Source: Bacteroidales bacterium (lineage in GTDB: Bacteria; Bacteroidota; Bacteroidia; Bacteroidales; UBA932). From it: a stretch of DNA of 34,778 nucleotides. Below the pieces are notes generated by a model. It was given only the letters and a program-made list of their open reading frames with translations. It was not told the origin of the DNA and ran no database searches. Positions 7,280 to 23,101 of the stretch are shown piece by piece. Each line of letters begins with the position of its first letter. Within the stretch, counting starts at the first letter, position 1. The stretch is from NCBI GenBank assembly GCA_017428245.1, contig JAFRRF010000014.1, positions 1 to 34,778 of the forward strand, in the 5' to 3' direction. The translations under genes and the position numbers were made by a program.

Positions 7280-7332
7280 CTTCCCCGGCAGCTCTTCCAA
7301 CTGCCCCTGGCCGCAACATCCTTTCCGTGCTT

Positions 7333-7448
7333 GGACGCTCGGTCCAGCATTTATCCATCTCGTGGATTAAACGTCCGGAAAAGTGACGTTTCGCCGCCTC
7401 TTTGGGACGCTCGAGCTACGAGACGGCGAATTGTTCGCCCGAGCGTCC
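7333..7448. repeat. Upstream 116-bp REPIN-like doublet (44-bp elements R1 and R2)
   Basis: R1 (7333-7376) begins GGACGCTC and ends AAACGTCC; R2 (7405-7448) begins GGACGCTC and ends GAGCGTCC. A 28-bp spacer separates them. Reversing R2 aligns it with R1 at 32 of 44 positions, including CCRTCTCGTRG at element positions 23-33, so the two are in inverted orientation. R1 has further inner complementarity, TCCA at positions 11-14 with TGGA at 31-34. R2 contains a strong inner hairpin GGCGAA-TTG-TTCGCC (7425-7439). Single-stranded folding of either element is plausible, as for known REP substrates. Confidence 0.85.
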
Positions 7449-7499
7449 ATCACAATCCCGCAAGTCTCTCCCTGCAGGAAAAAACGGGCGGGAATGTCT

Positions 7500-7507
7500 T
7501 ATATTTG
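7500..7507 (+). promoter_or_regulatory. Putative -7 box (TATATTTG) for the RAYT-like gene
   Basis: TATATTTG fits TAnnTTTG and lies downstream of the upstream repeat doublet and 81 nt before the ATG at 7589. No matching -33 TTTG is seen. The box would keep the transposase gene on its own promoter, independent of lptB. Confidence 0.45.
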
Positions 7508-7588
7508 TATCCAGCATTTCGGCTGTAGCGATGGAACGCGGCGGACGAATTGTGCGAAAGATTTGTGTAACCTGAAAAACGAAATGCG

Positions 7589-8524
7589 ATGCGGAAGACT
7601 TATCACATCTCCCTTTCCTCTCACAACGAGGTAATGTTCCGAAACAAAGCCGACCTGATCCGCGGCTTCAACTGCCTGGCTCTGGCCATTTTGGAAACCG
7701 ACTCCCGGCTGCTGGCCGACGGCTTCACCACCACCCATCTCCATCATCTGGCGCAGACGGATGCGCCAGTCGAAGTAATGAGGCGCTACCGCCTGGCTTA
7801 TACCCGTTATTTCAATGCCCGGCACAAACGGTCAGGAAGGATGGCGGAGAAATTCTGTTTCAAACTGCCGGTAGAAGGTTTCCATCATACTATGGCGGCA
7901 CTCAATTATGTAAACCGTCAGGGGCTCCATCACGGCCTTGCCCCAACGCCGTTCGGATACTCTTACTGCTCAGCCAAAACTTTTTTCTCCAAGCAGTTGG
8001 GAAGGGATCAACCTTCCGCCCTTATGCCCGATTCGCAGCGCTACAAGTATCTACCCCACGGCAACGCGATTCCTTCCTCTTATCGGATGGACACTTCCGG
8101 TCTCCTGCTCAGGGAAGACATTCTCGACGTCGCGCTGGTCGAATCCTACTATATCACGCCGCGGAACTATCTGTATCAGATGAACAGGCTCGGCGATGAA
8201 ATGTTGCTGAAAGAACAGCGGGACGAAGAATCTTCCTCACCGCTCATCACGCTGGAACTCATCGAGCAGGGAACGCCGGATATGGACATAAACCAACTTC
8301 TCCAAAATGAAAAGGGGAAGTTCGATCCCACCCTGATTTCCGATCTGGAATTGTGCGCACTGATCGATGAGACCTGCCTGCCGCAGTATTGCAATGGCGT
8401 CACCATATACGAGTCATCCCTGAGCCAGCGCAAATACCTGTATGACCTGATCCGGCGAAATCTTTGGCGGGCCCGACACAAAAGAACGTATGAAGCGCAA
8501 CTGCGCCGCTGCCTTTGCCTGTAA
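7589..8524 (+). CDS. Y1/HUH transposase-like protein, RAYT type, with long C-terminal extension
   Basis: The 311-aa protein has an N-terminal domain (about residues 1-135) that follows the REP-associated/IS200-like Y1 transposase plan. It opens with YHISLSSHNEVMFRNKAD, then has LLADGFTTTHLHHL with the HUH pair His50-Leu-His52. RYFNARHKRSGRM follows, then the helix AALNYVNRQGLHHGL in place of the usual YIxxNPxxAGL, with Tyr107 the likely nucleophile, and finally FGYSYCSAKTFF in place of 'Y.wSS...'. Residues 136-311 form an extension I do not recognise, with a basic, helical C terminus (RRNLWRARHKRTYEAQLRRCL) that could bind DNA. Its composition is visibly less GC-rich than the neighbouring housekeeping genes, suggesting transfer. 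The 116-bp doublets on both sides support a RAYT function. The ATG at 7589 is chosen over ATG 7584, which is out of frame. A domesticated or inactive role cannot be excluded. Confidence 0.8.
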   Translation: MRKTYHISLSSHNEVMFRNKADLIRGFNCLALAILETDSRLLADGFTTTHLHHLAQTDAPVEVMRRYRLAYTRYFNARHKRSGRMAEKFCFKLPVEGFHHTMAALNYVNRQGLHHGLAPTPFGYSYCSAKTFFSKQLGRDQPSALMPDSQRYKYLPHGNAIPSSYRMDTSGLLLREDILDVALVESYYITPRNYLYQMNRLGDEMLLKEQRDEESSSPLITLELIEQGTPDMDINQLLQNEKGKFDPTLISDLELCALIDETCLPQYCNGVTIYESSLSQRKYLYDLIRRNLWRARHKRTYEAQLRRCLCL

Positions 8525-8554
8525 CTGCCGATCCACCTTCTGCGCTACCTTACT

Positions 8555-8670
8555 GGACGCTCGGTAGATGTACATGCCATTTCGTAGATTGAGCGTCCAC
8601 GATTGCCAGCGCTTCGCTCCTTATCCGGACGCTCAATCCAAAAGACAGATAAACGATGGACAGAGCGTCC
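8555..8670. repeat. Downstream 116-bp REPIN-like doublet (44-bp elements R3 and R4)
   Basis: R3 (8555-8598) and R4 (8627-8670) both begin GGACGCTC and end GAGCGTCC and are separated by 28 bp, the same geometry as the upstream doublet. R4 reversed matches R1 at 35 of 44 positions; R3 read forward matches R1 at 30 of 44. Orientation along the sequence is therefore R1 forward, R2 reverse, gene, R3 forward, R4 reverse. R4 shares the inner TCCA/TGGA pair (positions 11-14 and 31-34) with R1. The doublet begins 31 nt after the transposase stop and ends 38 bp before the promoter box of the next gene. Confidence 0.85.
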
Positions 8671-8708
8671 AACGGAACAGAACCGGACCAGATTGGATTT
8701 TCTTTCTA

Positions 8709-22334: not shown

Positions 22335-23101
22335 TCAAGAGAATCCTCCTCACCACCCTGATCGTACTCCTGGCAGGCGGCCTGCTGGGATGCTATTTCC
22401 ACTTCGTGGGCGCCCTTTCGACGGAAGGAAAGCGGCAGCACGCCTGCCGGCAGGTCGAAATCATCCTGCTCGACTCGCTCGAAAGCGCCATCGTGGACAA
22501 GGCGGAGATGGAGGCTCTTGTAACAAAGATGGCAATCGGCACGCCGACCGTCGCCGTCAACATCGATTCCATCGAACGGGCCATCCGTTCCCACGGAGAG
22601 GTGATGAGCGTACAGGTCTATGCCGCCGACGAGCAGACCGTCGCTGCCCGGCTCACGCAGCGCAAGCCGGTGGTCAGGCTCGAAAACGGCAGCCAGAACT
22701 GGTATGCCGATCCTGAAGGATATCTCTTCCCGGTCAACAACTCCGTTGACGTACCGATCGTGACAGGCAACCTGCCGCTGCAATTGAGCGACAATTACCG
22801 GGGCGCCGTCCCGGAAGACAAGCGGGGCTGGCTGCTCGGCCTGGTGGAACTGGCCCGCTACATCGACAGCAAGCCCGTCCTGCAGCGTGAAATCTCCCAG
22901 ATTGACATTGCGCCCGACGGGGACATCGTACTCTACACCCGCTCGGCCGGCCCGGCCATCCTGTTCGGCGACAGCGGCGGCTGCGCGGAAAAGTTCCGGA
23001 AACTGGAAGCCTACTGGCGCAACATCGCCCCGCAGGCGAAGGACAAAACCTACAAGACAATCAATCTAAAATATAATAATCAGATCATTTGCAAGCTATG
23101 A
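22331..23101 (+). CDS. ftsQ: Cell division protein FtsQ (DivIB-like)
   Basis: The 256-aa bitopic protein has an N-terminal TM helix (about residues 4-23, ILLTTLIVLLAGGLLGCYFH). A divergent POTRA-like region follows (IDSIERAIRSHGEVMSVQVYAADEQTVAARLTQRKPVVRLEN). The FtsQ beta-domain contains NWYADPEGYLFPVNN and a C-terminal strand KTYKTINLKYNNQIICKL. It recruits FtsL and later division proteins. Sequence conservation is low, as usual for FtsQ; position between murC and ftsA confirms the call. It overlaps murC and ftsA by 4 nt each. Confidence 0.93.
   Translation: MIKRILLTTLIVLLAGGLLGCYFHFVGALSTEGKRQHACRQVEIILLDSLESAIVDKAEMEALVTKMAIGTPTVAVNIDSIERAIRSHGEVMSVQVYAADEQTVAARLTQRKPVVRLENGSQNWYADPEGYLFPVNNSVDVPIVTGNLPLQLSDNYRGAVPEDKRGWLLGLVELARYIDSKPVLQREISQIDIAPDGDIVLYTRSAGPAILFGDSGGCAEKFRKLEAYWRNIAPQAKDKTYKTINLKYNNQIICKL

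Follow-up and report, generated by a model that had tools for sequence, protein, structure and literature searches.

A 1.34-kb unit of a Bacteroidales bacterium contig (JAFRRF010000014.1), in which a gene stands between two doublets of hairpins, is probably a REPtron-like unit of an unrecognised RAYT-like family, whose protein would nick its own doublet and, in relatives, spread it in the manner of a REPIN. The unit lies within the 34,778 nucleotides that we analysed as a whole, referred to below as the window. An initial annotation of this DNA had already suggested a REPtron-like unit, and the suggestion is upheld by the association of the gene with doublets, by the correlation of stem and protein, and by the dispersed doublets of relatives. 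As the relatives each have their own hairpin sequence, in some cases scattered far from the gene, the family looks like an unrecognised branch of a known kind of repeat-spreading system.

The four 44-bp elements are all present in the window at the positions where they had been annotated. R1 (7333..7376, plus strand) and R2 (7405..7448, minus strand, inverted relative to R1) form the left doublet, while R3 (8555..8598, plus strand) and R4 (8627..8670, minus strand, matching reversed R1) form the right one. The spacers (7377..7404 and 8599..8626, without strand) are exactly 28 bp in both pairs, and the annotated match counts were also exact: R1 agrees with reversed R4 at 35 of 44 positions, with reversed R2 at 32 of 44, and with R3 read forward at 30 of 44. 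By these counts, the order forward-reverse, gene, forward-reverse holds in the window. One correction concerns the element ends: R1 ends in AAACGTCC, two mismatches off GAGCGTCC.

Compared as inverted repeats, the left and right 116-nt doublets matched at 81 of 116 positions, whereas 500 dinucleotide-preserving shuffles of the flanks gave 56 at best (mean 46.2, SD 1.9). A repeat search returned 119-nt arms (7331-7449 and 8554-8672) that are 71% complementary. When folded as single-stranded DNA, R2, R3, and R4 were stabler than their own shuffles (z −3.8, −2.7, and −5.7, respectively), R1 was weakly so (z −1.7), and the whole doublets reached z −3.4 and −4.7 against shuffles. Neither Rfam nor a tRNA search matched anything in the window.

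The gene between the doublets (7589..8524, plus strand) encodes a 311-aa protein, P0001, which profile comparisons and conserved residues place as Y1/HUH and RAYT-like. Its HLH motif (H50-H52) is encoded at 7736-7744 and Y107 at 7907-7909, both on the plus strand. Comparison of P0001 with Pfam, NCBIfam, PADLOC, and PDB sequences gave nothing useful; a Humanin match (E 0.031) was dismissed as noise, and a profile of 39 aligned rows found a single match, an unrelated nucleosidase (E 0.28).

A scan of genome contigs yielded 44 loci encoding relatives of P0001, all from genomes titled Bacteroidales or Bacteroidia, and for many of these loci the record titles name ruminant hosts. At E ≤ 1e-20, P0001 was present in 7 of 18 congeners and in 0 of 12 genomes from other families of the order, and no relatives were found in the plasmids, phages, and viral contigs searched. 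The family profile gave one to seven matches per genome in the 20 genomes searched, remote members counted. An alignment of 39 rows combined P0001 with 38 of these 44 loci, leaving out near copies (L017-L019, L027), a partial gene (L024), and one with an internal stop (L040). H50, H52, Y107, and R307-C308 are invariant in all 39 rows, so that the three residues named earlier as His50, His52, and Tyr107 show no variation among the aligned homologues. In the same alignment, the residue before H50 is T in 90% of rows or more and no W is conserved; the Tyr motif of the family is Y-x-x-R-x-G, R110 and G112 each being present in 90% or more.

Existing models scarcely recognise these proteins. Pfam Y1_Tnp matched 2 of the 39 members weakly (best E 0.067, below cut-off), and NCBIfam REP_Tyr_transpos, with its 80-bit cut-off, also matched two of 39 (best E 2.3e-5, none above cut-off). 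Among ten remote proteins, Y1_Tnp matched nine at E ≤ 0.1 and four above cut-off; REP_Tyr_transpos likewise matched nine, none above cut-off (best bridge-protein E 2.1e-9), and it outscored transpos_IS200 on the bridge proteins. In profile-profile comparison, hhalign scored the family against 19 bridge proteins at 99.9% (2.2e-37, columns 4-303) and against three canonical Y1_Tnp proteins at 96.4% (1.1e-9); the bridge and canonical Y1 groups were in turn linked to each other (98.8%, 5.6e-17). H50/H52 and Y107 aligned with the HuH pair and the Tyr of the bridge proteins. In a maximum-likelihood tree of 42 proteins, 19 family members fell on one side of a branch with a support of 100/100. The two hhalign comparisons of the family uphold superfamily membership for what had been annotated as a Y1/HUH transposase-like gene, and P0001 is, on these profiles, a remote Y1/HUH, RAYT-like protein. 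The C-terminus of relatives likely resembles an HTH, given weak Pfam matches to HTH_23 (E 0.012) and HTH_DeoR (E 0.05).

To relate gene and repeat, we searched automatically for doublets, that is, two hairpins with like stems, within 1 kb of 49 genes: the window gene with its three close paralogues, those of the 44 loci, and the remote L005. Doublets accompanied 42 of the 49 genes and stood on both sides in 16 of them, window included, compared with 0 of 490 shuffled loci (ten sets of 49) and none in 33 control windows at a distance of 3-4 kb. Seven genes (L026, L027, L037, L041, L049, L057, L058) had no doublet within 1 kb, yet L041, L057, and L058 have doublets farther than 1 kb away. The first-listed doublet measured 108-121 bp in 16 relatives on the window's side of the family versus 131-144 bp in the other clade (clade 2), and the hairpins were about 36-57 nt with long loops. 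Long tandem hairpin arrays with periods of ~83 and ~93 bp adjoin the gene downstream at L048 and on both sides at L050.

Stem similarity followed protein identity (Mantel rho 0.618, 0 of 999 permutations, n = 41): the stem was common to all 19 protein pairs at ≥90% identity and to none of the 400 pairs under 45%. In an ungapped alignment of 19 clade-2 doublets (133 columns), 11 of 24 stem pairs had changed on both sides, amounting to 40 cells against 10.4 in shuffled alignments, a value that 0 of 500 shuffles reached. Within each doublet of the unit the two hairpins are inverted relative to each other; those of the clade-2 alignment are mostly direct repeats. The initial annotation pictured this otherwise: inverted pairing does not hold across the family, the repeat family is set not by a single 44-bp sequence but by its architecture together with a stem private to each gene, and the foot typical of REPs is missing. 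The doublets of L020, inspected by eye, look like direct rather than inverted copies of one another. A GT[AG]G foot occurred in 1 of 240 feet tested, against a background of 3.1%. A GGCC-AAA motif was present in 26 of 42 spacers (background 4.4%), which we take merely as a hint, the motif having been picked after inspection of the data.

Small hairpin doublets with their own stems were also seen beside remote Y1 relatives of ~300 aa (L149, L150, L152-L154, L161, and others). Doublets were detected at 10 of 23 remote-relative loci, although looser settings without a control make this count merely a hint.

The initial annotation had also raised dispersal of the repeat in the genome as a possibility. 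We searched the whole genome of the window (2.37 Mb, 62 contigs) for GGACGCTC-N28-GAGCGTCC with up to three mismatches and obtained ten places, the same number as with a backward control pattern. Four were the window copies (0-2 mismatches), one was on contig C28 (2 mismatches), and five had 3 mismatches, one of these inside the window at 22510-22553. The exact 44-bp repeat is thus confined to this unit and not dispersed in its own genome; the dispersed doublets of relatives are described below.

Among the own-genome paralogues, the stem of L001 has 3-5 of 9 positions in common with the other three, whereas L002 and L003 agree at 8 of 9. A genome-wide search with the latter two stems found perfect matches at their own genes. 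The L002 stem had one additional doublet, on C24, possibly the other flank of L002 because the contig of the gene ends close by; the L003 stem had one perfect single-arm match besides its gene, on C54. One-mismatch single-arm matches occurred elsewhere in the genome, many of them for the L003 stem. A remote relative on C48 has a doublet adjoining its gene, and a solo doublet (G000:C39:97485-97602, L093) was seen to carry the stem of this C48 gene.

Relatives do have distant doublets: 20 were located over 1 kb away from the gene, spread over 15 of the 49 loci. Fifteen of them, in 12 of the 42 stem-defined loci, all agreed fully (9 of 9 positions) with the resident stem; the remaining five belong to L041, L057, and L058, where no doublet close to the gene is available for comparison. 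If elements of the same architecture are counted, the repeats do occur in other genomes bearing the gene family, and the initial annotation would have been undermined had they occurred in none. Seven of 23 distant doublets lay mostly within an ORF of ≥150 aa, compared with 0.86 of background windows, a count that takes in 23 of the 28 doublets outside gene flanks and leaves out five places of L048 and G005. Distant doublets thus lie mostly outside long ORFs.

Exact hairpins with the stem GCCGCGTTGACA numbered 13 in genome G005 and 3 in G006, with none in 18 other genomes. The 13 in G005 spread over 8 contigs, and one adjoins the single close family gene of that genome, which also has two remote family members. 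Places in G005 are 133-bp doublets or are lengthened in 82-bp steps to 215 and 297 bp. Common sequence extends past the doublet at 9 of 15 places and not at the other 6, so larger repeats carry some copies. Nine doublet places on C5, C11, C21, C26, C27, and C30 of G005 were noted to have a common right flank (AAT[GC]GC...). Exact hairpins with the stem GCCGCGTTTGCA numbered 3 in G001, 1 in G008, and 1 in G013, with none in 17 others. G008 and G013 are exceptions to the match of stem and gene because their known close genes (L055, L047) have another stem; in G002 and G003 the gene's stem is nearly GCCGCGTTTGCA, yet no exact GCCGCGTTTGCA hairpins were found. A covariance model built from the 19 doublets gave 7-97 matches per genome in 15 clade-2 genomes, 5 of which had contributed rows to it, 3-12 in four other genomes, and none in the genome of the window. 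Both strands and overlapping registers enter these counts, for which at most 150 candidates per genome were scored. An empty-site comparison with LptB as query matched 27 of 30 relatives, but by eye repeats directly followed lptB in G022 alone; the other relatives had different sequence after lptB, and no empty site was obtained.

These observations bear on three other explanations. The whole 1.34-kb unit might be an IS200/IS605-like insertion sequence with the doublets only as its ends, as would suit a protein from the same superfamily, doublets on both sides of the gene in the window and 15 other of the 49 loci, and a related unit at L020 (78% protein identity to the window) in different surrounding sequence. 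We consider this unlikely, given that recent or near-identical full copies were not found, the own-genome paralogues of the window protein being at most 66% identical, that gene-less doublets exist, and that the doublets at left and right belong to a single kind instead of forming distinct ends. It is less probable still that the doublets are regulatory sites, such as operators, terminators, or structured RNA, and the protein a domesticated regulator that moves no DNA. The invariant catalytic residues, the distant doublets at 15 of 49 loci, and the arrays at L048 and L050 all speak against a regulator, even though the doublets adjoin the gene, the C-terminus of relatives has its weak HTH matches, and the window repeats are undispersed in their own genome. 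That the repeats belong to another mobile element and the gene is merely nearby is very improbable: the nine G005 places that are alike beyond the doublet would fit, but the stem sequence tracks the neighbouring protein and distant doublets carry the stem of the resident gene.

We accordingly return to the REPtron-like unit with its REPIN-like spread. Most likely, the protein would bind its own private hairpin doublet on single-stranded DNA, as exposed in replication for instance, and Y107 together with an H50/H52 metal site would nick and rejoin the strand. In relatives, the doublet would be copied or moved as a small non-autonomous element similar to a REPIN; in the genome of the window, by this explanation, the gene and three close paralogues keep their doublets nearby and have hardly spread them. 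Single-strand binding, nicking, strand transfer, and the part of this protein as disperser are all inferred. With the GT[AG]G foot absent, recognition and the choice of cut would have to follow other rules; as the stem changes along with the protein, we propose that it serves as the address. Loop and spacer would hold common signals, with the likely C-terminal HTH perhaps recognising the stem in duplex form. We counted against this explanation the undispersed exact repeat of the window, the absence of the GT[AG]G foot and of Y---NP, the seven genes lacking a near doublet, the stem mismatches in G008, G013, G002, and G003, the likeness of the L002 and L003 stems, and the larger repeats in G005. 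A further proposal, that these proteins form a distinct Bacteroidales Y1 class in which the stem is an address coevolving with the protein and several paralogous systems with different stems can share one genome, each mobilising only its own doublets, is nearly balanced but tips slightly toward doubt; full orthogonality is contradicted in part by L002 and L003, whose stems are similar although both belong to the four own-genome paralogues.

Known systems share some of these traits. Where PMC6006769 treats TnpA_REP/RAYT proteins (class 2), they resemble the family in the HuH motif, the single catalytic Tyr, and the pairs of inverted palindromes flanking the gene, and, with their REP, BIME, or REPIN, in few diverged copies, dispersed doublets (found here in relatives), and a repeat type tied to its own protein. 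As tabulated there, a W motif and either DHxH or NHxH occur in all eleven subclasses, with Y---NP in class 2. Unlike class 2 as so described, with [ND]HxH, the family has THxH in at least 90% of rows, no conserved W, Y-x-x-R-x-G in place of Y---NP, and about 300 aa with a long C-terminal half; in contrast to class 2 REPs, its hairpins of about 36-57 nt are long-looped and lack the GT[AG]G foot. In E. coli, TnpA_REP recognises and cleaves single-stranded REP DNA, for which PMC8266576 gives GTAG as crucial.

Three other described groups are also among the nearest. Subclass 2.6 of PMC6006769 (RAYT group 5) is likewise found in Bacteroidetes, its genes lying between atypical secondary structures that recur at other places in the genome, but has a median of 179 aa, NH[LIV]H, WQ, and YIH[QN]NP. 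TIRYT genes of TIRtrons, as described in PMC3733652, are Y1 genes between long inverted repeats, some self-complementary, with dimers elsewhere, and many TIRYT have a C-terminal HTH as well; the GGGGWSAS motif of many TIRs, however, was present in 0 of 60 family doublets. For subclass 1.2, PMC6006769 gives Y---Q--HH, equivalent to YVNRQGLHH of the window, in Bacteroidetes and at low copy number; this subclass differs in its 148 aa, DH[IV]H, WQ, and general lack of terminal hairpins, and clade 2 has N where Y---Q--HH has Q. The accessible text of PMC11194056 places RayT genes near abeS in Chryseobacterium and does not describe repeats, and that of PMC10878065 merely names rayT as a correlated gene category. 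Our search of the RAYT/REPIN literature on Bacteroidetes and Bacteroidales, with most subscription papers outside its coverage, found no account of this family. The P0001 family is probably a new RAYT-like subclass in Bacteroidales, apart from the published subclass motifs and unrecognised by Pfam and NCBIfam.

If the REPtron-like reading is true, the RAYT/REPIN world would extend to a protein branch that Pfam and NCBIfam miss and would gain REP-like elements that lack a GT[AG]G foot. From the many protein-stem pairs found in nature, the recognition code could be read and tested. The family would offer small single-strand DNA nucleases of differing specificities, and some of the dispersed repeats of uncultured Bacteroidales would have an explanation.

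Between the left doublet and the gene, the promoter-like box TATATTTG (7500..7507, plus strand) is kept in L016-L019 and resembles the Bacteroidota -7 promoter box, TAnnTTTG. Just after it, a leader with pairing ends (GCATTTCG / CGAAATGC; 7514..7587, plus strand) is conserved among the window's relatives and stops one base before the start codon. Its outer helix is paired in 100% of cells in 10 sequences, and three pairs of the leader have changed on both sides; covariation lends weak support because 6 of 8 outer-helix pairs never vary. The leader may be a structured 5' UTR controlling the gene. At clade-2 loci such as L047, L052, and L053, we noticed a further conserved inverted repeat, AATCGTAAAAAA...TTTTTTACGATT, at −90 to −35 upstream, which precedes a promoter-like TAnCTTG and might be an operator.
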